Source: Kondoa malvinella (taxonomy: Eukaryota; Basidiomycota; Agaricostilbomycetes; Agaricostilbales; Kondoaceae). Taken from it: a stretch of 64,000 bases of DNA. Location: assembly GCA_039545315.1 (NCBI GenBank), contig BCIM01000003.1, positions 1,065,637 to 1,129,636 of the forward strand, in the 5' to 3' direction. Below the pieces are notes generated by a model. It ran no database searches and was not told the DNA's origin. It saw only the letters and a list, made by a program, of their open reading frames with translations. A program made the translations under genes and the position numbers. This document shows positions 36,664 through 52,606 of the stretch, one piece after another. How positions within the stretch are numbered: position 1 is the stretch's first letter; each line of letters begins with the position of its first letter.

Positions 36664-37418
36664 TCATGCTGTGAAGTAAGGATCTGTTTTATATGAGGTG
36701 TATGCTGCTCGTTCGAGTGATTTTGTTGCGGCGACTTTGTCTAGGTTGATGTCCTCTATCAGTTCGTCTACAGCCCGTGTCAGATAATTAAAGTATACAT
36801 GGTGGAGAAGGACTAACCCATTGATGGATAATTATACTCTGGCCGTACGAAACCTAGTATGACGACTTTCAGATGCGAGCCGTAAAAGTCGCCTGGAAAT
36901 TCATGCAACAGATGCACTTCCTGTAAGCAAGCATATATTGAGCTGGACAGCCAGTAGAGGATAAGAGAGCAACTCACCGCTGTCCGCTTTTCGTTCTTGT
37001 AATAAGGATTCCACCCAATGCTCATGACCATCGGCAACACCTCGTCATGCTTTGTATCCGATCCTTTGTAAGCAACTTGAGCATATCCGAAATGCACGCC
37101 AGTCTGTAACGTATTCTTTAACGGCGCTATAGCTTCATCTGGTAAATTCGCTATCACCCTTGCATCAGTCAGCAATTCTCGCCTCCAAACGAGAGAGAGA
37201 GACGGACCAGTAGGACAGCCAAGATCTTTACTCCCTCTCCCAAAGCCTCGCATCACTTCGCCTTGCATGTACACGGGATAAGGCGGTTCTGGTGAATCAG
37301 GTCCGCATACGAGTTGTCTTGTCTTGCTGCTTGTAGGTACTTGAACTGGTGTCGGTGCTCGAGTATGATCTGTCTCTTCTGCCAGAGAGGCTCGCACGGC
37401 TTCTACGGAGGAAGTCAT
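36664..37418 (-). CDS. FMN1: Riboflavin kinase
   Basis: Phosphorylates riboflavin to FMN. Starts at 37418 (MTSSVEAVRASLAEETD). Family landmarks: PPYPVYMQGEVMRGFGRGSK, DLGCPTANLPDEAI (the PTAN motif appears only after removing an intron that starts gtccgt), GVHFGYAQV, VLPMVMSIGWNPYYKNEKRT, EVHLLHEFPGDFYGSHLKVV and ILGFVRPEYNYPSMDELI. It ends AAYTSYKTDPYFTA at 36664. About 200 residues, the normal length. Only about 115 nt separate it from the divergent gene at 37536. Confidence 0.93.
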
Positions 37419-37535
37419 CGCTGCAAGATGAGAAGTGCAAGCTTGTTTCCGTACGTCGATGTCGCCTTTTCTCTGGGTCCTTATGCTGATCGCCGGCCTA
37501 CTGTATGAGTGAAGAGACCTGCAACAGCGATTGCA

Positions 37536-38049
37536 ATGTCTCAACAGGTCGAATCGGAAGCTGCAAACGCTCTCATGCAAGAGAATCCCAATTCTTCCTT
37601 TCTTCTCCAACCTGTGGCATTATTCTCTCATGCCTGCTTGCTGTGCATGTCAGCATCTGAAGTCCGCGGAGATCTCGTCCTTTGCCCAAGCGAAAGATTC
37701 CGTCCTCGGCCTGTCTGCCATCAAGACAATCACGGATGAGCCTCAACGAGCCTTCGCTGCAGTCCTAGCCGCCATTATTCCATCAACCTATCTCAGCCAA
37801 GCCGTGTTTCGCCTTGTTACCACTTGTGCATGGCGACGACACTACGACCAGCTGCGATCTTTGTGTTGGTACAGACTGGCTAGTCATGCGGATATACCTC
37901 TGGTACATTGCAATAAAAGCTTTCACGAAAGACATCAATACTCATTTGCTGGCATCATGATCACGTTCCGTCTGAATTCTCAACAATTGGGCTACCAAAA
38001 CCCACCTACCTGCGCGCAATCTTACGTGACTCATTCAACCTTCGGTTAA
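37536..38049 (+). CDS. Small protein of unknown function, divergent from riboflavin kinase
   Basis: Probable start at 37536 (MSQQVESEAANALMQENPNS). Removing a 40-nt intron starting gtggca joins it to HLKSAEISSFAQAKDSVLGL and AIKTITDEPQRAFAAVLAAI, a helical, alanine-rich stretch with normal composition. Beyond about 37800 the frame becomes Arg/Cys/His-rich and is probably not coding, so the true end may be earlier. I do not recognise the family. Confidence 0.4.
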
Positions 38050-38217
38050 CTAGTTGCCCTCTTGAACCTTTTTACCTAGTCCACCTTCGGTTATCTCATT
38101 CACCGCTCTTAGCTCTCAAATCGCGCGGGTCGGGATTTGTTGATCTTAATCATTAATCCGCTCAATGCGGGGCCTATAAATGAACGAATGATCTTTTGAT
38201 TAGCACGCACCATCACA

Positions 38218-39480
38218 ATGGCTGTGCTCAACTCTCTATTGGCTTGTGCTGTTCTGTTGGCGCCTGTGTTGGCTTGGAAAGAAAGTTGCGAAGCTTTGCG
38301 ATACCATTCGGATTTGGTCGACACGGTTGCGACTACCTACTATGCTCCTGGTGACTTGGTAAATATCACCAACTTGGCCAGTAGCATTTCAACCACGGAG
38401 TTACCTGTGCGTTCCATACATAAGCTGGGAATTCGCTCATGCGTTACCTATAGGGCTTCTGCAGAGCACAGATCATCGTGCACACCAATAGAGAGACAGG
38501 TCAGCTCTTATCATGCAGATTGTAAACCGACTAAGCGTCTTCCTAGGCAACTTTGCGAATACCGAAGTCTGGCTTCCTGATGAATGGAACGAGCGATTTT
38601 ATGGTGCTGGAAACGGTGGTTTCAACGGAGGCAAGGGTTTTACCTTTGATGATGGATCATTCATCTGATGCTACGTCGTATGCAGGTGTCATTGTATCGG
38701 ACCTTGGGTTTTCTGCCGTTTATCGAGGCTTTGCCGGCAGTGGGTCATTGCATGGTGGCTGTCTTGCTTTCACTAATCTACTGCGCAGTGTCTACGAATG
38801 CCGGTCACAACTCGACCGCTTTCGAGTAAGTTTGTCAACCGATACCCTAGCTACATGTTCTGATTCTCCTGCACTAGTCTCTCATGGGCGTTGAACAACC
38901 CAGAAGCTGTAACTGACAACGGATACCGCGCTATCCAGCTATCGACTGTCGCAGGCAAGCAGATCGTCAAAGCATACTATGGGAGAGAAGCAAAGACCAA
39001 CATCTGGAACGCTTGCTCTACCGGTGGTCGACAAGGACTCCTCTTCGCTCAGCGCTTCACGGATTACTATGACGGTATTGTTGTAGGTAGTCCAGCTGCC
39101 TGGGTCACTCACTTAGGTGAGCTCGATTCCAATGACCTAAATGAAGACTGACGAAAGATGTTTATAGAGGGCAGAAACATTCACATTGCTCTTATCAACG
39201 GTACAGACGAATACGTTGCACCCGATAGCTGGGGTACTCTGCAAGAAGCCGTTTTGGCTCAATGTGACAAGCTCGATGGCGTCGAAGATGGTGTCATCAC
39301 CAATCCAACTGCTTGCAGCAAGATGTGCGTGGTTCTGCGTGGTTCTCCGGAACATATCGCTCAAGGGCTGACTCGACCTTAGCTTTGACTTTTCCGCTGT
39401 GGCTTGCGGCGCGAAACAGACTGCTGGATGCTACACTCCAGCTCAGATCCAAAGTATTGCGACGCTATACAGCATCAGCG
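38218..39480 (+). pseudogene. Tannase/feruloyl esterase, 5' part of a split gene
   Basis: A secreted esterase of the tannase family, which cleaves phenolic esters of plant walls. Signal peptide MAVLNSLLACAVLLAPVLAW. Spliced exons give GFCRAQIIVHTNRETGNFAN, VWLPDEWNERFYGAGNGGFN, VSTNAGHNSTAF, SWALNNPEAVTDNGYRAIQL, the nucleophile block NIWNACSTGGRQGLLFAQRF, DGIVVGSPAAWVTHL, INGTDEYVAPDSWGTL, CDKLDGVEDGVITNPTAC and AGCYTPAQIQSIATLYS. Two introns (38631-38685, 38737-38788) need GC donors. Homology stops near 39475. The Asp and His of the catalytic triad and the C-terminal third are missing, and the sequence runs into the 3' end of the opposite-strand XPG-Fanzor gene. The C-terminal end lies at 51224-51475. 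Confidence 0.85.
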
Positions 39481-42400
39481 GCCTCATTAATCGACTGGGC
39501 CATAAAATCTGCGCAACACGACATGAGCAGCTGGATTTGGCTCGCCGCTAGCATAGAACACTCACCCTCTTTGCGGTCAAACGGGTGACAACCCCAGACC
39601 AGCCAATGCCAAGCGGCAAAGGCGATGTTACTTGCAGCCGCAAGGTCCCTATTATACTTTCTCCTGCAATTCTCGCATTGTAGCACCCGTTCGCAATTGT
39701 TTCCGTTATCCGCGTACAGCGGTTTGTGAAGCCTATCCACAATAGTCAGCGGCTATTCGAACCAAGGACCTGAAAAACCCACTTCGAGCGTCTCCAGTCT
39801 CCGCCTACTTCATCGCCCAAACGGTCCTCCCAATCGTCCCTTGGAGACCGCAAGCATTGCGAATCAGGACAAGCCTGGGAGGTAAACCCTTCTTGCACCT
39901 GCCATAGCATGAACTCCAATCCTTGCCAACCCACCTCGCTCAAAATTGCCCTCACAATGCCATTTCTGAAGTCTGCTGATTGCATCCTCACATTGTCCGA
40001 AGCCTTTCCCTCACTCCCGAGCGCGAATATCACCTTGACTCTCGGCCAGCATCGCGATGAAGGTGTGTGGTCGTGATTGCAGTTGTCCGAGGAATGCGAG
40101 CACCGACCAGCGCGAGCTCCACATGCTTCCAAGATCTGCGCCGAAATCCGAGCATAGATTGACTGCTGCCGTGTTCTCAACAGCCAGGCTTCGTGTCGAA
40201 TCGGCCTGGAGGTGCGCGAAAGAACCCTGATTGCATTGGCCGCAAATTTGACTCGTTCGGACTTCCCGCCAAGCTCGTTCTGGTTGCTGTACCGCTTGAG
40301 CCAAGGCAAGTCCAGACAGAAGTTGTCGCGAAGCTTTTGGCAGGCTCGAGCATGAATCTTGAGGGGTTGCTGCAGGCCGCCATTTGGGATCAGTATACGG
40401 CGCTGGACCAATTTGCCTTGTTCGTCGTACGTTCTCGCCCAGAGCGCGTGGGTGAATCGGACGCCAGGATCGTCGCCGATAAAGACGACCTTCTGCTTCT
40501 CAAGTGCTTCAGCGACGAGACCGTTGGCTTTTGGTTCAGCTTCTATCGGATCTTCTTGCATTGCTTCTTCCATCAAGTGGTCTTCTCTCTCCGGATCTTG
40601 CAGCTCGTCCACTTCCACTTCCATTTCCATGCCATCCTCCGCTGCTCCATGACTTTTGTAGCTTTGCCCTTCAACCTCCTGCATCTCGACATCTTGGCCA
40701 TCTCTGACGCTGTTCTCTGTAGGAGTTTTCTGAAGAGCAGCCTGTCGACCGATGTCAGATACCTTTCGGTAATCCTGCAAGTCACGCTCACTTCGGCAGT
40801 CACAGGTTCCATCTCGTCCGCCAGACCTTCTTCTGGATCGTATCCCTTGAGCACGAAGTCTCGCGCGCTACCGACTGTCTTGGCATTGAGGTGCTTGACG
40901 CTTATTGGTAGACCATTGAGCGTGCGCTCTTGAGTGATGAACTTGGCTTGAGTGTACGTCCTTGTCATTTTGTCGAAACGGCACGGTCGTGTAGAGTGGT
41001 AAGTCGGCAATATGCCATCTTTCGCATAGGACCTGCTGAGATCCACCTTGTCGCACTCTTCTCCTTGGCACAGAGGTGAGTTGATCTTGTTGCAAGCTTC
41101 TTCAAACATCCCTTTGACCGAAGCTCCATCTTGCAATGGCAGCTTGCCTCTTGATACGTCGAGACCACGAAGAATGAGCGCACATCCATCAAATGAGAAC
41201 GATCCGGTCGCCACAAAGTACCTCGGCAGCTCTTCTGTCCGGAACAGCATGTCGACAAGCGGCAGACGAATGCCTGTTGCATCTCGCTTCGCCAGGCTGT
41301 TTTTGCCTTTCAAAGCTTGAGCGACACCTTGAAGTAGCTTCTCTGAAGCAGCTACATGCTCTTCGTCCAGCTCGAGCTTGTTCATGGCCTTGCTGTTTGC
41401 ACCCAGCGCATTCTGAAGTAGCTGACGACCGATCGATGGCTTTGACCTGATAGGCCTGGTCTGGTTGTGCTTGAAACATGGCAGTGTGTCCAGCATGCCA
41501 GCAATCTGATGGGCTACTTCAGGGTGAATTGAAGCATATCTGGTCTTGCCAATATTGCACGAAAGACTGTCTTCGAATTGAGCAGAGTCGAAGCTGCCAG
41601 GTGTTGGCATAGGGGCCTCGCTCTTGGCAGATGCCACCAGCATTTCACCGCACAACGGCAGAACCTCCTCGTTCAACCAGGCAACACAATCTTCTGAAAC
41701 CCGCCTAGGCTCTCGTAGAATGTCGTAGAAGCTGTCGAAGCCAAAGCCCAGAAAGTTCGGTTCAAACCTCTACGATGCTGTTAGTCTTGTGGGCAGTCAG
41801 ATTGTAAGTTGACCCACGATCATGTTGCCCGCGTCTTTCCCTTGGTTTCGCATCATGGTGTCCCTCCACCGGAACATGGCTAGAGGTCGAATGGAACAGA
41901 GCTGACGAGGGGTCAGGGTCGATGCGGCATCGGAGTTGATGTTCTTGTCACGCTCTTGCAATGATGGCAGAAGCACTGAGCCGATTAGCAGATCCACGAC
42001 CAGGCTCAGATCTTGAGCGCTAATGCCGAGATTCTTGCTCTTTACCGCTGCTTCGAGGCGCTTTCGATCTTTCGCATCGACTTCTGGTGTTTCTCCATTG
42101 GTGTACGAGCTGATTCCGACGTCGTAAATCAGATTGCGGAGGACTCGACAGACAGGTCCCAGAGCTCTTCGGACCTTCAGATACAATGGATGCTCGGCGT
42201 GTATCAGGCCGATGAGCCGCATGATTTCTCGCCTGATACAGTCGTGTAGGTCTTCTTTTGCGCTGGTTTGAACGGAACTGGCGATCGCGGATGACACCTC
42301 GCCCCAGAGTATGCTCGAGCTTAAGATGTAAGGCAGCAAAGGTAGCCCGGTGTCCAGGACTTCACAGACCGACCCAATAAGTATAGGATCTAGATCGTTG

Positions 42401-44941
42401 TAGGATCTGAGTCGAGCCACCACTTTTGGATCCAGGCTGTCGACATAATTGTCGCACTCTGCTTGACCAGAGAAGTAGGGCCGGAAGGTTGGATCGGACT
42501 TGAGCTTTGCTCTGAACTTGATTTGCATGTCCGGCTGAAGGTTCTTGGCCTCGTTCTGGGCTTCTTTCTCGACAGTCAGCACTTGACAGATTTTGGCAAC
42601 CACTTGCAAGTAGCTCGTCGGACTCTCATATCTTGCGCTACCAATGTAGGACGACATTGAGCGATCCAAGTGACGTTGAAGCGTCCATATGATGGTCGGT
42701 AGCCCAATCTGCTGACAGGTAAAGACTAGACGTAGATTGCAAAGAAGAGGATTGGAATATTGAGACTCGTCATGCACATCATGCTTGCGAAAAATGGTTT
42801 CGGCAAGGCGAGCATGAGCAGGAGTCCGGTAGACATGAGAGAGCTTTGATTTGTTATTGAATATCTTCTCTTTTGGCGGATCTTGCTCTGACTTGTCTGG
42901 CTCAACATTTGCTGCAGTCTCCTCTTCATCCTCAAATTGGGCCTCTTGCTCGTCCCACTCCTTCTCTGCCCAATGATCCAACTCGCTCAGCTCGCCTCTT
43001 CTTCGCAACATCTCGTCTCTCCGGATTTCGCTTGCTCGCATGACTTTCGCCCTTTCCACCTCTTCTGGGGTATAATTCTCCTCGTTCCATGCCAAGGCCT
43101 CATCGAGAAGCTTGAGATCGGACCTTTTCTTCTTGCGCTGCCATCTGGCTTCTCTGCGAAGCGTAGACCAATGCGGAGGTGACATCTCCGATCTCTTGCT
43201 GCGCTTTCGGATAGATGGAGACCGACCGAGCTGCCTGCTCTCAATTCGAAGCTGGTCTTGCGAGCGATCGTCGTCTTCAGCATCGAGCGGGTCTTGCCTG
43301 TGAAGGTTTTGGTCTGTGTCGGAATGGTCGACGAGGCAAAGGTATTTGTTTGGTGGTTCAGGGAACTTGAATGACAGATTGCGAGGTGGTTTGGACTTGC
43401 GAAGATCAGTCTTTGACCGTACAGCCTCTACATCAGCCTGGTCGGCAATTGCGGGAACCTCAGGAATAGTGTCGAGGTAAGTATGCGCACAAAATTTGAA
43501 GATTTTGCAGGCTTCTAAGGAAGTTCGAAGCAGAGTCTCGGACTTCAGAGAATTGAGCGTTTGATGCCAGTTTGACTTTTCTTGGAGGCGCATCTTCTTG
43601 GGCAAGCGAGCTATCTTTTGCCTGCACAGCAGAACCAGGTTACTGATCGTCTTTTCCGGGTCGTCCTGTCACGAAACATTGGCCTTTGTGCTGTCGAATG
43701 TATGAAAATCTTACCTCGTGAATAAGATCGTGATATAACTCTAGCTTTGCGAAGCCAAGCTGTTTCACGCCCTTGCCTCCGGAGTAATCCTGGCCAGATA
43801 GCAGGCTGATTTGGTGTAGAATTCCTGGACTGGCCGCCCATTCCTCTAGTTGCTCGAGAGGCTTCTTGTCGATCAAAGAGTATTTCCCGCTTTGCCCGAA
43901 CCTTGTTCGCGTCGAAAATGCTACAAAGCGACAGATTTGGTGAAACCGGTAAATGAAGAAGTCGGAGTCGGGTGACCAGAAAAACGTCCAGTCTGCGATG
44001 TGTTGATTCCGTAATTTGCGAGCTTCTTGTATGCGATGAGCTGTATGGTCGGCCTCGCTGTGACATAGTACCACCAAGATCTTGGCTGTACTGGCGAGCA
44101 TGCTTGCGTTTGCAGTCCGCCAACCTTGATCGAACGCTTCGCTGCTATTTTGCAACGATTCAGGACGAGCGACTGTTGATAGCGATTCGTTAAAGACGTC
44201 CACCGTTGTTGGGTCGTCGAAGGCTTCCTCGATGGATGGAATGCCTGGAGCGCGTTGCAAAGCGGATCTTGACAAAGGCCATGCGAATCCACATGGAGAA
44301 TACTTCTGAAACGTCTTGAAAAGTCTGCCTAGACGCCTGGAAAGCACACGCTTGTTCTGGGTGTGCTGTCTGTCGCGAACTTTCTTCCCTCGATCTTCTT
44401 GCCTCAGCTGACGGAGCTTCTCCACAATGCCTTCAGCCTCTAGCCGTGCAGCATCGAACAATTTCTTGCCCTCTGACAATGCCCTTGCTCGATCTTGATG
44501 GGTCGCTAGCTTGCCGCATGCGTACGCCGACCGATCTCTATCGTCCAGCAGAAGAGTGATAGAGTTGGCTTTTTCAAGGGAGTAGGCCAGATTTCCCAGT
44601 AACGACCGGGCTGCCAGGTTGATACGATGTTGCGCTTCCTCTAGATCCGCAAAGCCAGCCTTGCCAGCCCATTTCAGATCTCGGAAGGGACCAACCCGGC
44701 AATGGTTCTTTTGGATACGGCAAATCGCAGGGAACAGGTAGCCCGTGCAGTCGACCACATGATCTGTAGACTATTTAGCTCTTTACCCTGCTGGTGATGA
44801 CCTGAAACTACCTGGCAGACGCTCGTCTGGTACAACAGCTTTCACCAGCTCGCCAATGGTATCGAAACGCTGCACAATCTTTCTCTCCAGCGTGCCAACA
44901 TTCTTTTTATTAATAAGGGCATGCAGTCCTCTAGCTCCCAT
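39465..44941 (-). CDS. XPG/FEN1-like nuclease fused to a Fanzor (TnpB-family) RuvC nuclease
   Basis: Six exons (44941-44812, 44763-43715, 43665-41818, 41769-40792, 40741-39783, 39732-39465), introns of 48-50 nt. They add up to 5232 nt, an intact 1743-residue frame. The N-terminus is XPG-like: MGARGLHALI start, VVDCTGYLFPAI, LLLDDRD, EADHTAHRIQEA (about 280), SPDSDFFIY (about 309) and the helix-hairpin LLSGQDYSGGKGVKQLGF (about 365-381). A charged linker and a long helical middle follow. The C-terminus is Fanzor: FVATGSFSFDGCALILRG (wedge-like), VVFIGDDPGVRFTHALW (RuvC-I Asp, about 1425), WQVQEGFTSQACPDSQC (RuvC-II Glu about 1619, first zinc cysteines), RVLQCENCRRKYNRDLAAAS (second cysteines, RuvC-III Asp about 1684). 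Fanzors are RNA-guided DNA nucleases carried by eukaryotic transposons; function of the fusion is inference. All catalytic residues appear to be present. Confidence 0.88.
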
Positions 44942-45483
44942 CGCTGTTGAATAATTTCAGACTTGCGCATGTAAGCTTTTTTTCCATCTTGCTTACGTTC
45001 CCTCCTCTGCGAGTGCTGTACACCACCAACAATCAATTATCGCCAGATAGTTGGAATTCTGTCTCGTCACCTTTATATCCACGAATCGCTGTTATCCGCT
45101 CGGCAATACCGGTCGTGTTCATGCATCGCACATTGGTGCTATTGTGATTGTGCGGACAATCGTGGGTGTGCGCTTTGTTGACGGTACAGTCTTAAATGAT
45201 CTGCAAAGGTTTCGTCCCTGGAGAGAAAGAAGGCTCGCCGAAAATTGGTGCAACATGTCGCTGAAAGATCCGAAGAACTTGGACAATTTGGACAATAAAC
45301 CTTTCTTGTTTTCCACTGCGCAGACAGGCTAATGTTGCAGGGATGTAGTGCAGCAAAAAGCTAAGCGATCCGAATTGTTATCCGGTAGTTGTAGTGGCAG
45401 ACGCGTTAAATGCATCGATCGACGGCTCTTTGCTCGCGTCACCACTCTTAGACGCTCTCTGCTTGTCTGTCACTTCAGCATCA
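44942..45483. promoter_or_regulatory. Upstream region of the XPG-Fanzor gene
   Basis: The minus-strand promoter and leader of the nuclease gene should lie here. A short upstream ATG (MRKSEIIQQR frame) lies just before the start codon at 44941. No plus-strand exon is convincing. Confidence 0.35.
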
Positions 45484-46924
45484 TGCGCAAGGTGCATACT
45501 TATCGATATAAAGCCAGATTGGTGGAACAAGCCGCCCAAAGAAGTCTAGAAAGCGGCTTCGTCTTGTTTCGACTGCTTGAGTAGGCAGCGAGCGCATACA
45601 GCCAAGTCTAGGAGCGAAGGCCAACATCAACAAGCTACGTGTCTTGATCTATCGACCTTGCTGCTACTATATCTGCGTCTATTCTTTCACCTAGCAAGCC
45701 CAAAGCTCCGCAAGCTAGTGCTCCCTCCCTCGTTATCCCTTTGACTATAGGTAGACAGACAAGCACGTTTGCTTCTAGCTCTTCCTCTCGCCCTTGCCTG
45801 CAGCGTCATCCCAAGATTTGGCAAGACATCGACTCTTTTTCTATCTTCTCTTCTAGGTCTGCAGTCCCTTACGGCCAGGACTCGCGCAACAAAGAGGCCC
45901 ATTCCTCTGCTTCCGCACTTCTCCTGCTACAATATCAGAGCTAAAAGCTTGCTTCGGCCCCGTCTCCTGCACCTTCACCTGGAATCCTCTCGTTCAAGAA
46001 GTCATTGCCATCAATTCCGACGATGCCTCACTGCGTGAACTGAGCAGCCATAGAGCGAATGAGTAGGAGAAACAAGTTGAAGCAGCTAAGCCAGAGGCGG
46101 ATGTCACAAGGGTTGATGCGAACACGCACGAGCTTGTCGAGCAGAAGGCGCGCAACTGGGTGGCCGTTTTGTAAGCCAAGCCTCTGTCAAGTCATCTTAC
46201 ACCATACTCATTGCCCAGTTCTGATAGTGCACAAGCTCGGACGTCGTCTCTAAAGGCATGTCTTCTCTCATGTCGACAAATATGGACGTCAAAGTTGTGT
46301 CTACAGTCACTGCCGCGTCCACTTGCGTGTCAGCTCTGCTCAGCTATACGTCAGCTCCCTTGCAAGTCTTGTATACGACTGATTCGAACATCAATACAGT
46401 CGCTTCAGCGCATTCTTATACTAGCTCAACGCTTACTCTCTGTCAGCTCTCGAGGTGCTCAAATCTACACCTGCCCTGCCTCTTTCCTCGTTACGTCCGC
46501 ATTTACTGCGCCCTGCTATCTGTGCTTTGCGCTTCTCGAGATGATGCACTCGATCTATCAAATCACCTGTGTTCCGGTTACCTGGACCTTGGCCCTCACT
46601 GCTTGTTACAGCACTGCCTGCTTCCGATCATTTCCATGCGCCGATGTTGTGCGCTGTATATCTGCCAAAGATGCAATATGCCGTCGGTATACCTTTGCCT
46701 CAAACGCACTGACCGACTTTCGCACGGTCACCTACAAGACCCAGCCAAAAGGCAAACGCAAAGTCCGCAACATTGATGGACGTTGGGCTCGACTGGTAAA
46801 TGACCTCGGCACAGCGCTCGATGATCTAGTCGCAGGTGCCTCCGAAGATCAGACGGAGGTCTTGCAAGTTGCCTGCGCCTATCTCAGAATATCGCCTCCG
46901 AATCGCGTCTTTCAAGTATCATGT
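45484..46924 (+). other. Uncertain or degraded coding region inside the insertion
   Basis: Pieces look coding but do not assemble cleanly. Near 45960-46170 a helical stretch (NPLVQEVIAINSDDASLREL, then EKQVEAAKPEADVTRVDAN and LVEQKARNWVAV) is interrupted by an in-frame TAG at about 46056. After a possible intron (46172-46218) a 230-residue frame continues to 46924, ending in a credible segment (TQPKGKRKVRNIDGRWARLV, LGTALDDLVAGASEDQTEVL). No family is recognised. Either a decayed gene or one whose introns I have not resolved. Confidence 0.3.
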
Positions 46925-47673
46925 TGACGAAGACTAGGATAGCGTTAGATTCACAACATGTTCCATCGCAAACCGACAGATTGACCAACACCCTCGGACT
47001 TCATCGTCTGCAATACCATACATTCTTTTGCCCTATACACCTTTTAATATTGTCGCTGGTCCCCATATTAGACTTGCTTAGTTGCGCAATTGTAAAAGAT
47101 CGCTAAACCAGCTCTTGACTTCTGTCCGCGACATCCATACCGCTGATTGTCCTGCATGACCTCAAGCGCCTCTCCGCTCACTCGTCTGACACGCTCTGCG
47201 AGCATTGATCTTCCGCCGGCGGTTTTTGAGTATTCCTTCGCATTCGCCAACCTTTAAAGCATACCCTCTCGTAATGGAGTGCCTTTCTGCCAGAGGTGAC
47301 CGATCTACAGTACAATGCCTTGATCGTATGTCTGCTCTTCTTCTGCCTTGTCCTGCCAAATGGCGTCACCTTTACCGATTCTCGCCTACACTTCTACCTC
47401 GCAACCGTCCGCTATCATCGCTGCCTCGCGCAAGCGCGCGGTGTCATGCTGCGCACATCTTACACGCATCGCGCCATTCTCATCGGAGCCGTCATGCATG
47501 AAACATCAGGGTCCAAGCACCCATTCATTCATGCCGTGTACAATTTAGAGCAAAATTTTCACAATTGATTGGCCTTCTGTGCAAAGAAGTACGAAGGGTT
47601 GGTATTGGACAGTTGACACGTCTTAATTGGTCCTTAGTCCTTGCATCGCCCTGCATCCGCTGCCACGTTCAGG
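46925..47673. other. Unassigned region upstream of the nucleotidyltransferase gene
   Basis: A short frame from about 47158 (MTSSASPLTRLTRSASIDLP) and a second at 47296-47568 (ending HAVYNLEQNFHN) could be exons of a small gene. They cannot be joined with confidence. No RNA gene or repeat was seen. Confidence 0.3.
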
Positions 47674-49125
47674 ATGTCGGCGCAAGACTGTTTCATTAGC
47701 AGCTCCCCCAACATTACCGAACAAGATTGTGAGCATGCATCGAACATTAAGACCTCACATCTGACTCTTTGGCCGTCAGCTGCCTTCTGCACTAGTAGTT
47801 CGTCATCTGAGCTCGTCTGAAGCTTGACTTAATAATGCTACCGCAGTATTGGGGCGCTCACTTGATGAGAGCAAGCGAGACACACTCACCCACGAAACGC
47901 TCTGCCTAGTCCAAAAAATGCTCAATGACCTTGTCGCCTTTGAAGATCCTAGTATGGACATCCGCATCGCTCTATTCGGCTCAGCAGACTCGGGCCTGAC
48001 AGCGGGTGGGGCATGCGACGATGAAGTGTCTGGCGCCGCCTATGACCTCGACATTGCCGTTCTAATGGACAACCTACCGTCCAATGTCTCGGAACGGCAT
48101 CAGCTCATGCCTTGGCTGCATGCTCTCATGCATCGACACCCACTTTCGGACTTGGATCTATCTACATTCAAGTTAAAAGGATTCACGCCCATGCAAAATC
48201 TACAAGGCTTGGTCTCGGTGTCAGGCAAGCTCGTCAAAATCGATCTGACTGGCCAGAATGACGACGGCATCGCTTTGGCCGATACCTTCAAGCACGTCTT
48301 CGCCTGTGATGCTCGACTACGACGGGCGGCAATTCTCGTTAAAGCTATTATCAAGAGGGCAATCCCCAGCATAGACAATGCCCCGCAAAAGCAGCAGCCA
48401 GCCCCAAGAAGCATTCTCATTTTGTACCTACTACTCTGCTTTGCTGTAGAGACTCTGGAATTGCCTCCTTTGCCGTGAGTATCTCACTGCGCATACCGAC
48501 AGTCGACTCAGTACGGTCATGAAGCTGTCTGGTAGCGTCGAAGATCTCAACTGCTGCTGATGCCAAAAACGCGCGTCAAATGTACCACACCACGCTGAAA
48601 CGGCATCTAGGGGATTTCGCCTGCCCGGATGATGCGACAATCCAATCGATAGTGGCAGGCTTCTTCCGCTGGCTGACTTCTGTTCTTGCAAAATCGGCCC
48701 TGGCCCTGAATCTTGACATCTTTGAGCACAAAGCCGATGAGAGATTGGCAACATGTTCGCGTTCGCCTGGTATCACTTGGCATGACGGGTGTCGAAATGC
48801 CTGGAAAAAAGGTTCGGCGTGCTCTATTGATGCTTGCTCTGGTCTAAACCTTTTGTGCCTAGAACTCGAAGGAGTGAATAGAATGACCAAGCTCAAAATC
48901 GCCGTCGACAACATCAGCGCGAGTCTGTGTGCGTTCTCACCAAACGGAATGTTTGACTTGTCTGTCCCAAGGTGTCTAATCTCCATGTCTGGCTAGCACC
49001 CTCGTTTGACATTGTTATACAGACCAGCGCCAATTAATCATCAGTCCTCTTCTCTCGCGCCCCTCTTTGATGTCGATCAAGCAAAAGTACTCGGATTTGC
49101 TACTTGCGATTGTAAGCTCCAGTAG
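47674..49125 (+). CDS. Cid1/TRF-type nucleotidyltransferase (non-canonical poly(A) polymerase-like)
   Basis: Two short leader exons (start 47674, MSAQDCFISSSPNITEQD) precede the main exon. The nucleotidyltransferase core reads IRIALFGSADSGLTAGGACD then AAYDLDIAVLMDNLP, matching the GS...DLD metal-binding signature of the pol beta superfamily. KLVKIDLTGQNDDGIALADT could hold the third carboxylate, and ARLRRAAILVKAIIKRAIPS matches the start of the central helical domain of Cid1/Trf4 enzymes. The frame passes through a small exon (TVMKLSG) into FACPDDATIQSIVAGFFRWL and a final exon PAPINHQSSSLAPLFDVDQA. Such enzymes add A or U tails to RNA. A link to the guide RNA of the neighbouring Fanzor is only a thought. 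Downstream exon edges are tentative. Confidence 0.62.
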
Positions 49126-49182
49126 TCTTGCTTTGTCCAGAATATTGATGCGACCATGGTGCAGCTTGCAGTAGCCCAGTAG

Positions 49183-50925
49183 ATGGTTCTGATCTCGCTG
49201 CTAGCCATCGGCACACCAAACAGCGGATCTGCAGTGCGTAGCATGATCCAATTAGTGTCCGCATCTCAATTTGCTGGTAGAGTCCTGCCTCAAGAGCACG
49301 TTATGGTCTCAACTCAACCTATCGTATGTTTGGTGCACTCGCAGCGTTGGTTGGCCTGATTGCCGCCAGCAGCAATCTCGGGAATGACGAACAGCAAACG
49401 CTATGTTCCGAATTGAATCAGGTTCCTACCTCTGCCGCACCGCGAGATACGTCGATAGGGGTCACTCAGGCTATGCCGACTGGGGCGATCACCAGAACTC
49501 TGAAAGCCTTCAACTGCGCCAGTCTAGCGCAAATTTATGAATCCATCGACTTTCTGCAAGCAAGTTCCTTTGCCAGCGTCCTAGAAAACGATCGAGCTTT
49601 GGTCTCTGCACAGATTGGCGATCTTATCGGCATGCTCATCTGCAAGGCAGAAGATGCTCGATTAGCTTACCCAAACCCCTTTGGCTGTCTTTGTCCGCTG
49701 GAAGTCCTCAGAAACTCGATGCTCGTCGGGTCGGATTTCTTTCAAGCATTTATGACCACCTTTGGCATTGCCGGCATGCGGGAAATGCAATTGCAACAGA
49801 TCTTCATGGCTTTCGCGCACGTCACCTTGCAAATCAAACAGATCAGCCTCACCATCTGGACTAGTCGGATAGGCAGCATGATCAGAACAGCCGCAAGTCT
49901 CGTCACGAAGGCGACAAGCTCATCCGCATTGGCTGGTCAAGAACTATGGGCTCAGATACTGGCAGACCTGCGCACCCTACCTCCCTCAGCTTCAGCTGAG
50001 CATCTGGAGTCTATCGCTACTCTGTTCCACTCCTGTATTGCTGTCGCTGTCCAGTTGTCTTCCAATGCTGCTTCCACCGCTTTGATAACGCCCAAACGTG
50101 CAGTCAGCAAGAAGCGAAAGCGCGCTGCCTCGCTGGACACTCCCAATGCCAAGCGATCCAAGCCAGAATCGTCTTCCCCTGGTACGCGCATTTCCGCTAT
50201 GCTTTGATCAGAATCTCACAATTTTCATTGCAGGTCAAGTTCGAGTGGGTTGCTGTTTAGCTCTATGATTATGGCTCACTCTATGATACAGAGTACTGCT
50301 GGCGAAGCTGCTCGTGAGGTCATCACCCTGTTCCGCTACGTTCAACCTGACCATCGTTTGGCAAACCTACAGCTCAATCTAGCAGAGTAAGCGCGATCAT
50401 GTGCCTATCCTGTGTGTTAGCATTGATCGACTCGTGAAAACAGTTGCACGACGCCATTGAAGAAGCGGCCAAAGTAGGCCAGAAAGCTCTCGAGACAGCT
50501 ATGAAGGCAAAGAACATCAAGACAACTGATCTCCGCTCATTCGCCAAATCACAAACAATCAACCTCAAGGGACGGAACACCATCGCTGGACGTATCGAAA
50601 TGATTGTCGCTCATTATAGCTCGGAAACGCCTGCAACACCAAGTAGGCCGCCATTTGTATACTTGCTATAACTCCCGCCTGAACCGTATCGATAGATTCT
50701 GCCAGACGCCAACCCAGAAAGCTACGGCAGAAGAAGGATGTATCAGAAGATGAGGAACAAGCTGATGACTGTGGAAGCGTAGATGAAGATGAAGAAGAAG
50801 AAGAAGAAGACGGCGCCGAAGAGCCTGGCCAGAGAAGATCAACGAGAATCTCTGCTTTCCCGCGCAAATCCGTCAGGGAACTCAATTGTTCCGAATCAGA
50901 CGATGCAAACGGGACAGAGGCCTGA
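49183..50925 (+). CDS. Nuclear-looking protein of unknown function inside the insertion
   Basis: Probable start at 49183 (MVLISLLAIGTPNSGSAVRS). A first intron from about 49278 leads into a long helical exon (FAALVGLIAASSNLGNDEQQ, FASVLENDRALVSAQIGDLI, MQLQQIFMAFAHVTLQIKQI) that ends in a bipartite nuclear-localisation stretch (KKRKRAASLDTPNAKRSKPE). Smaller exons follow: VITLFRYVQPDHRLANLQLN, LHDAIEEAAKVGQKALETAM, and a SAP-like piece LRSFAKSQTINLKGRNTIAG. The last exon is acidic and basic in turn (EDEEEEEEDGAEEPGQRRST) and ends at 50925. I do not recognise the family; nuclear DNA or RNA association is inferred only from composition. Confidence 0.55.
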
Positions 50926-51223
50926 GCGATCAAACACACTTTGCGGGACCTTCGCCTTTCTTGTATATACTTTTGGGTTGCATCAGCTGTTGGGCTTGAT
51001 TTTACACTCTCGCTGACAGGTACAAGGAAGACGGACTATTGCCTTTATAAATCTCGCCCGTCCTTGGCCAAAGACACGCAGGGATACCCATAGTACGGAA
51101 GACTCGGTCTGCATTCCTTTATGAACACACGGATTTCGTCTTGAGAGAAGAAACGAACCATAATCGAGCAGCAACCGCTCAAAAGCTTCTTCGATGAAGA
51201 CCAGGTCCAAGTCAGTCAGAGCA
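50926..51223. other. Right-hand junction region of the insertion
   Basis: Contains no tannase-like plus-strand sequence until about 51224. On the minus strand one open frame (51342-50983) includes LTDLDLVFIEEAFERLLLDY and FLLSRRNPCVHKGMQTESSV, which could be a decayed exon but matches nothing I know. Confidence 0.35.
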
Positions 51224-51475
51224 GCAGCGATAGCTCGAAAAGTCGGCCTAAATTCGCCCAATGTCGCCAACAGCCCTAAATACGATATCGTTGCAGCCAT
51301 GGTCGCATGGGTAGAGGAAGGCCGCAAACCAGAGAAAATCATCGCTGCTCATTATCAGGACAACAATGCTACTCTAGGCATTGAATTCACTCGACCTCTT
51401 TGCCCTTGGCCAACTAGAGCTACTTATGATGGAAAAGGAGATGTCGATAGTGCTGATTCTTTCAGTTGTGCTTGA
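51224..51475 (+). pseudogene. Tannase/feruloyl esterase, C-terminal part of the split gene
   Basis: The frame reads NSPKYDIVAAMVAWVEEGRK, PEKIIAAHYQDN, GIEFTRPLCPWPTRATYDGK, GDVDSADSFSCA and stops at 51475. The block YD(I/V)...ALxxWVExGxxPExIIA, followed by TRPLCPxPxxAxYxGxGDxxxAxxFxC, is the standard end of the tannase/feruloyl esterase family. Same strand as the 5' part at 38218-39480. The catalytic His region (VPGMxHC) is not present upstream of it. Confidence 0.82.
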
Positions 51476-51560
51476 GGTTGAAGGAGTATAGGGAATGCGT
51501 CATGTGATAAAAATGCTATGCAATGTGAGAAATAGTCCGTGTGAGATACCATATGTTGCG

Positions 51561-52606
51561 CTAGAAAATGCTGTTGACGAGACTGGAGCCTGCTCCGAAT
51601 CCTATACCTCCAACACCCTGTTGACAGGTAAGTATAGAATGACGCGATGCGAAAGGTCAACGCACAGCATGCATCACTGACCAAACAATGAGCACCGCAC
51701 TTGTAAGAGCAGAGCGTGGACTTACAAGTATTCTTCAAATCAGATCTCCGGCTGTTCTTCTGCTCTACAACAATGGGCTGCTGCTGCTGTTGAGGCGGGG
51801 GAGCATGGTACTGCTGAGGCTGGATTTGCATTTGTTGGAATTTCTGGTCTACAGGTGCAGAAGCGGGAGGTGCGAAAGCTAAGATGAGTGTGATATCATT
51901 GTACTGCCAGGTTGGTTGGGCATGAGGGGTTTTAACAAACCGTTGCTGTGCGGTACTATCCCGGTTTGAGGTAGGTTGGCAGGATCTTGCATCCGTTCCA
52001 CGTCTGTCAATGATGTCAGTGCCATATCCGTGGATAAGAAGCTCAACACACGGCTGTATAGATAGCTAATCAGCTATGCAGCACAAAGAGCGAAAGACTC
52101 ACTTTGTAGGGAACAATCCCTCAGTGCCAGCACTATGTCTACCTCTCCACCACTGCGCCTCTCATCAGCTTGAGTACTTTCACCGTATCATCGCACATAC
52201 ATGCTCATTCTCCTCAGCGAGAATCTCAATCACATCGCCTTTTGCAAAGTTCAAGTCACCTGGCGTAGCAGACGAGTAATCCCATAATGCTCTGGCTAGG
52301 TTCTTTGGTGTCTGAGGCTTGGTCGCAGCTGGTATAGCGGGCACAACTCGACCGACTGGGACCTGCTGCGGTGGTAGAGAGACTTGCTGTTGTTGCGGTG
52401 GAGCGATAGATAGAGGTGCTGAAGCGGGAGTGGATATCACAGGTAGACGAGAACGAATCACAGCGGCGTCTGTTCCAAGGTCAGCTTCCCCAGGGACCGG
52501 ACATAAAGATAGCTATACCATTAGGTTGGAGGTGTCTCAATTCAACGAGTAGATCTAGGTCGGCGTTGATGCGCGATGTCAAGTGATCCAATAGTCGAGC
52601 TTCCAT
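51561..52606 (-). CDS. SH3-domain adaptor protein (Lsb1/Pin3-like)
   Basis: Starts at 52606 (MEARLLDHLTSRINADLDLL), a short helical head as in yeast Lsb1/Pin3 and related actin-patch proteins. A Pro/Gln-rich linker (PPQQQQVSLPPQQVPVGRVV) precedes one SH3 domain: ARALWDYSSATPGDLNFAKG, DVIEILAEENEH, with the remaining strands after a short intron (GTEGLFP). A Q/P-rich region (APPPQQQQQPIVVEQKN) and a glycine-rich C-terminus (GVGGIGFGAGSSLVNSIF, stop 51561-51563) follow. Expected role: linking proline-rich partners to cortical actin or endocytosis, inferred from domain order. Confidence 0.75.

Follow-up and report, generated by a model that had tools for sequence, protein, structure and literature searches.

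TnpB proteins of bacteria and archaea belong to IS200/IS605 and IS607 elements. Fanzor proteins (Fz1 and Fz2) are their eukaryotic homologues and relatives of CRISPR enzymes. The nucleases of the XPG/FEN1 group (FEN1, RAD2/XPG, EXO1 and GEN1) act on DNA flaps and branches and have active sites with acidic residues, which in FEN1 are D34, D86, E158, E160, D179, D181 and D233. Yoon et al. (PMC10711439) recognize Fanzors by a DPG within RuvC-I together with a glutamate placed six residues ahead of the zinc finger, and Bao and Jurka (PMC3627910) give the signature D-X(125,275)-[TS][TS]-X2-C4 zinc finger-X(5,50)-RD. Fanzor papers including PMC10432273, PMC10711439 and PMC3627910 discuss transposon carriage and, in their accessible text, mention no natural fusion with another enzyme. 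One published passage names a Fanzor and an XPG-type nuclease together, for proteins of large DNA viruses, and describes no fusion architecture. Here we describe a gene in which the two are joined. It lies in a 64,000-nucleotide stretch of the Kondoa malvinella genome (contig BCIM01000003.1, positions 1,065,637 to 1,129,636; hereafter the window, to which plain positions refer), and its predicted product of 1743 residues combines an XPG/FEN1-like N-terminus with a Fanzor-like C-terminal half. This architecture is real and old, and apparently undescribed. Our preferred explanation, to which we give about an even chance, is that it represents one gene of an old family, encoding a two-nuclease protein in which both halves would act on the same DNA site.

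The window protein resembles Fanzors in the published signature, in the DPG and in the position of the alternative glutamate relative to the zinc finger, and differs from them in its length and in that its Fanzor-like half is preceded by an XPG-like domain and by a further ~600 residues. This comparison is one of C-terminal features, and in the fusion loci transposon ends and omega-RNA were not found where they were sought. With bacterial and archaeal TnpB, the protein has in common the TNB zinc finger and RuvC-III, whereas its glutamate stands in the Fanzor position and it has introns and a large N-terminal fusion. With XPG/FEN1 nucleases, it shares the I-region, H3TH-like motifs, acidic residues and a Met-Gly start, but it contains a long insertion between D117 and SEAD, is fused to a Fanzor and escapes detection by Pfam.

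The joined exons of the window gene form an open frame of exactly 5232 nt encoding 1743 residues, and introns 1 to 5 are 48, 49, 48, 50 and 50 nt long (Table 1). This open frame confirmed the six exons, the 48-50 nt introns and the total length proposed in an earlier reading made from the letters of the window (the sequence-only reading). The lengths and the XPG and RuvC/zinc motifs quoted there were all present as stated: MGARGL at residues 1-6, SEAD at 279-282, DSD at 309-311 and GQDYSGGKG from 367 in the N-terminal part, and DDPG including D1426, EGFTSQACPDSQC from 1619 and CENCRRKYNRD ending at D1684 in the C-terminal part. Enumeration of the possible joins, each of the five switch regions being allowed a GT-AG intron of 40-75 nt, gave 72 that stay open, with twelve solutions for intron 4, three for intron 1, two for intron 2 and a single one each for introns 3 and 5. 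The exact C-terminus of the protein is uncertain, since residues after ~1713 (the last ~30) are not conserved and a donor-like GTGAGT lies at 39565. Together with a TAG acceptor, this site would allow one more intron at the gene's 3' end (39465-39565).

Table 1 Exons, introns and domains of the XPG-Fanzor fusion gene, and its full-length paralogues (feature, position, strand, description).
XPG-Fanzor fusion gene	39465..44941	minus	six exons, 1743 residues; open joined frame and three full-length paralogues alike in architecture
Exon 1	44812..44941	minus	residues 1-43 and first base of codon 44; MGARGL start, as in L024
Exon 2	43715..44763	minus	residues 44-393; XPG-like domain with D48 (by eye), D117, E280, D282, D309, D311, D369
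XPG-I and H3TH-like segment	43724..44080	minus	residues 272-390; HHalign profile matches above all shuffles
Intron 2	43666..43714	minus	49 nt, phase 0; joins XPG part to remainder; one alternative
Exon 3	41818..43665	minus	residues 394-1009; unconserved charged linker, then conserved region matching no known family
Intron 3	41770..41817	minus	48 nt, phase 0; sole open solution
Exon 4	40792..41769	minus	residues 1010-1335; conserved C-terminal half ahead of RuvC; metagenome protein P0002 spans same part
Intron 4	40742..40791	minus	50 nt; within variable acidic linker; borders uncertain; not in L024 and L025 models
Exon 5	39783..40741	minus	residues 1336-1655; RuvC-I (D1426 of DPG), alternative RuvC-II E1619, zinc half-site C1625/C1630
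Intron 5	39733..39782	minus	50 nt, phase 2; sole open solution
Exon 6	39465..39732	minus	residues 1655-1743; second zinc half-site (CENC), RuvC-III D1684; PF07282 on 1610-1691, E 5.9e-5, under its cut-off; conserved to ~1713, tail not conserved
L021	C2:506918-512301		model of 1757 residues; subfamily A with window gene
L024	C2:338644-343658		model of 1659 residues; subfamily B
L025	C12:578067-583155		model of 1680 residues; subfamily B

Protein searches of the genome (19.09 Mb, 20 contigs), whose short introns and tannase gene fit a fungus, revealed three further full-length loci with the same order of parts, L021, L024 and L025. Identity was 37% between the window protein and L021, 43% between L024 and L025, and 21-22% between subfamilies A and B. 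When the two subfamilies were compared by HHalign as two-versus-two profiles, residues 1 to 1743 of the window protein were aligned (E 1.6e-48). The parts were also alignable singly, with E values of 6.8e-9 for the XPG part, 3.9e-10 for the later half of the middle and 1.3e-34 for the C-terminal part, and the later part of the exon 3 region gave a probability of 96.7% on its own. Introns 2, 3 and 5 lie at matching places and in matching phases in the chosen models (393, phase 0; 1009, phase 0; 1655, phase 2). In L021 all three were placed by spliced alignment to the window protein, and the same protein as query placed introns 2, 3 and 5 of L024 and introns 3 and 5 of L025. Intron 4 of the window gene and of L021 falls in an unalignable linker in both, and sharing is not claimed for it. 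The gene-model choices in the three paralogues lean towards the fusion reading: introns 1 and 2 of L025 were chosen from lists of alternatives and not by spliced alignment, the acceptor of intron 1 in L024 was set 15 nt further upstream than spliced alignment had placed it, in order to keep the Asp motif, L021 and L025 were given start codons by eye with the Met-Gly motif in mind, and intron 1 of L021 was also selected by eye.

Two more loci, L022 and L023, match the Fanzor half only. These C-terminal fragments (L022 3261-4760 and L023 2556-4050) are 5'-truncated copies, 94% identical over a 1506-nt alignment, which keep the last intron and ~390 nt of common 3' sequence; L023 carries a stop and a frameshift. 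With the L025 protein as query, a genome search (E up to 0.1) returned the same six loci and no others, and none of the genome searches (E up to 10; E up to 0.1) gave a match to the XPG part apart from a Fanzor part. The TNB model had four matches in the whole genome, all of them members of the fusion family and none over the cut-off, and the XPG-I model found five other, ordinary XPG-I loci. The window gene is one of a family that comprises four full-length genes and two fragments. The terminal 74-88 nt of the common 3' sequence of L022 and L023 recur at C4:100833 (L035 3834-3921).

The C-terminal half carries the features of a Fanzor. In the window protein, D1426 is followed by P and G, and E1619 precedes the first zinc-finger cysteine, at 1625, by six residues; the alternative glutamate at this position is present in all four paralogues. 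The signature of Bao and Jurka, in a pattern that permitted 5-90 residues between the two Cys pairs, was found in all four proteins versus 2 of 2000 residue-shuffled proteins. The D-E-D residues and the zinc finger are kept in every one of the four paralogues. In addition, a PF07282 (TNB) search of C-terminal pieces, run at E up to 10, listed all four members, the lowest E being 1.8e-6, as did the NCBI guided_TnpB model (best E 1.6e-4). An HHalign comparison of the C-terminus with four archaeal TnpB proteins reached a probability of 86% and a score of 48.8, whereas the maximum in 150 column shuffles was 23.7. These results suggest a Fanzor in the C-terminal half, its zinc finger and D-E-D RuvC site both intact.

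The N-terminal half was compared with XPG/FEN1 nucleases by profile. An alignment of the N-termini of the four members matched archaeal FEN1 in HHalign with a score of 31.5 (probability 12%, P 0.0025); none of 200 shuffles did as well (maximum 24.4), and the controls were lower, at 14.7 for the reversed alignment and 17.4 and 22.2 for other parts of the protein. When three XPG exons of the same genome were added to archaeal FEN1 and the target was cut to the I-region, the score rose to 41.0 (probability 75%, P 2.5e-5), with none of 150 shuffles as good (maximum 24.6). This alignment comprises residues 272-390 over 110 columns and places SEAD, DSD and GQD on the acidic motifs of FEN1; subfamily A alone gave P 3.5e-4 and subfamily B alone P 0.027. 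A FEN1 hidden Markov model (HMM) matched the N-terminus of the window protein weakly, in register at 303-383 (E 0.00087 in a search of four). D117, E280, D309, D311 and D369 are invariant in all four members, and position 282 reads D, D, E and D. D48 was identified by eye and in L024 depends on the acceptor chosen. M1 and G2 are likewise invariant in the four models, of which L024 begins with MGARGL by alignment and L021 and L025 have starts chosen by eye. Taken together, the profile matches and residues point to an XPG/FEN1-type structure-specific nuclease at the N-terminus, with the I-region and H3TH part most certain. Weak Pfam matches in this region, each in one of the four members, were set aside as chance: PreAtp-grasp (E 0.0036, below the cut-off), DUF7181 (0.01), COG5_C (0.011), ACAS_N (0.068) and CCDC138_cc (0.13).

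Outside this genome, relatives were scarce. A whole-protein search of 5.8 billion proteins, in which the best 8000 candidates by shared words were scored, gave none at E <= 0.01. A search of the same collection with the XPG alignment gave no relative among its best 8000 candidates, and the first FEN1 query gave no confirmed one. Two of the 4541 candidates from the C-terminal alignment search, P0001 and P0002, are relatives; they are exon-sized fragments of 262 and 524 residues and uninformative on the XPG part. Two scans of viral contigs yielded 22 and 40 pattern matches and no confirmed relative. A fusion of a Fanzor with an XPG or flap nuclease was not found in the papers that could be searched, subscription papers and fungal proteome annotations being mostly beyond reach; the sequence-only reading likewise knew of no described fusion. 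An undiscussed database record of one may well exist.

The retention of both sets of catalytic residues across divergence to ~21% identity argues that both active sites are in use. We propose that the Fanzor half, together with a short RNA, would open and cut a chosen DNA site, and that the tethered XPG half could then remove the branched or flapped strand arising from unwinding or repair synthesis. The break might thereby be committed to copying-in of the gene's own locus, which would serve homing or copy maintenance.

Several results weigh against this proposal, and they are considered here together with the rival explanations that they favor. The strongest rival, which we regard as possible though clearly less probable than a pair of cooperating nucleases, is that the fusion is real and has become a domesticated or host-side nuclease, whose Fanzor half works without guide RNA and which acts in DNA repair, replication or genome defense. 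The copies are few, highly diverged and dispersed. Apart from this rival, the preferred explanation is weakened by the DPG being present in only two of the four paralogues (window protein and L024), the others having DAG and DMG. PF07282 scored the window protein at 23.6 bits whole and 25.5 bits as a piece, under the curated cut-off of 26.3, and guided_TnpB on the window piece gave E 0.026 and 13.8 of 100 bits, far under its cut-off. Four sequence searches of the Protein Data Bank (PDB) gave nothing below E 0.07.

The window gene lies in the gap of a broken plus-strand tannase/feruloyl esterase gene (PF07519), with its 3' end abutting the left break. The left piece of the tannase gene (38564-39474) covers profile positions 23-213 at 38564-39322, and the right piece covers profile positions 425-490 at 51269-51472. 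No match to the middle (profile 213-425) turned up between the two ends, which are 11.8 kb apart. From the broken tannase gene around it, we infer that the fusion gene may have come in as part of a block no longer than ~11.8 kb, or along with one. As would be expected of a host-side nuclease, no terminal inverted repeat (TIR) or target-site duplication (TSD) beyond chance was seen in the flanks examined, where exact repeats of at least 11 nt were sought over 0.8-3.6 kb per side and the longest, of 12 nt, was within the shuffle range. At the window locus, comparison of eight open reading frames (ORFs) or pieces with Pfam revealed no transposase. For the remainder of the block (44.8-51.2 kb), a genome search at E up to 0.001 gave no second copy, apart from ~160 nt at its right end. 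A 227-nt stretch at 51039-51265, 88.6% identical to C20 (L036 4021-4249), ends where the tannase remnant starts and is perhaps filler DNA from break repair. Plus-strand ORFs at 47803-48996 look nucleotidyltransferase-like by eye (GSADSG ... DLDIAV) and have no Pfam match, and a minus-strand riboflavin kinase gene (PF01687, E 2.7e-19) lies at 36813-37619.

Omega-RNAs of TnpB systems overlap the 3' end of the ORF, and at that place subfamily A gives a hint, and only a hint, of constraint at the RNA level. In the last exon, identical residues use the same codon in 56-61% of cases in three pairs, versus 31-43% elsewhere in the protein (Fisher p 0.007, 0.003 and 0.07, the first calculated on counts recovered from rounded fractions). 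The excess is plain at fourfold sites (16-18 per pair) in two pairs, 0.65 versus 0.39 and 0.50 versus 0.32. However, the codon excess is not significant for the window-L022 pair (p 0.07), the fourfold excess for window-L021 is small (0.39 of 18 versus 0.26-0.36), and gene conversion would explain the codon conservation equally well. No stable single-sequence RNA fold was found in any of the four copies (z -0.13 to 0.56), Rfam had no match in 37000-52000, and the genome contains no solo copies of the 3' segment; the missing omega-RNA fold and solo 3' ends agree with a host-side role. All four subfamily A copies share DNA identity as far as about residue 1713, beyond which L022 and L023 alone continue together. 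Over 39553-39731, nucleotide conservation in the last exon seemingly exceeds what the protein needs, and the stretch common to the four copies ends at AAAGAGGG. Three pattern matches with 2 mismatches are located elsewhere. Against a host-side nuclease stand the D-E-D residues and zinc finger kept in all four paralogues, the hint of an RNA role at the 3' end in subfamily A, and the two 5'-truncated copies, which bear an intron and show duplication at the DNA level.

A second rival, which we consider rather unlikely, accepts the Fanzor at the C-terminus and takes the N-terminus for some other domain, nuclease-like or unrelated, whose resemblance to XPG is confined to its acidic motifs. Residues 1-393 have no Pfam XPG or PDB match, the Pfam XPG search being empty for all four members at E up to 10. 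The FEN1 HMM, itself a weak match in the window protein, had no match in the other three members (0.36-0.39), and subfamily B alone reached only the P of 0.027 given above. The first 150 residues were not significant against the FEN1 profile (36 of 150 shuffles as good), so the XPG-N half is a tentative assignment from motifs, namely the Met-Gly start and two aspartates. Set against this rival is the 110-column profile match of the I-region, with SEAD, DSD and GxD in register, whose P of 2.5e-5 was equaled by none of the shuffles. The XPG-like N-terminus of the sequence-only reading thus stands by profile for the I-region and H3TH, while an XPG-N half is suggested by motifs.

The third rival, two neighboring genes (XPG-like and Fanzor) misjoined across short introns, is very unlikely. 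In its favor, retention of intron 2 could end an XPG-only product, intron 4 is ambiguous, and in L024 and L025 the placing of certain introns varies with choice or with the query (when L021 served as query, intron 2 of L024 was placed elsewhere, as were introns 2 and 3 of L025). Against it, the same part order with matching introns recurs at three other loci at identities down to ~21%, and the genome searches (E up to 10; E up to 0.1) listed no match to the XPG part away from a Fanzor part.

The sequence-only reading is supported in part. Its claim of one gene is favored by the recurrence of this build in four copies that share introns, among them intron 2, and its Fanzor-like C-terminus is borne out by the published fingerprint and signature and by the TnpB profile match; the fusion, which it saw in one gene, is now a family, and its guided cutting, strand processing and homing are kept here as proposals. 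More tentatively, and with clearly less confidence than in the two-nuclease protein itself, we suggest that an RNA-guided nuclease and a flap nuclease may have evolved here as one polypeptide, which would by itself suffice for homing or copy maintenance and would be old enough to have diverged into two subfamilies ~21% identical. That four diverged genes have all kept a repair-type nuclease beside the Fanzor suggests joint action of cutting and strand processing, and makes the role of Fanzors for their carriers directly testable. If active, the protein would be a natural cutter-plus-flap-remover of practical interest for gene insertion.

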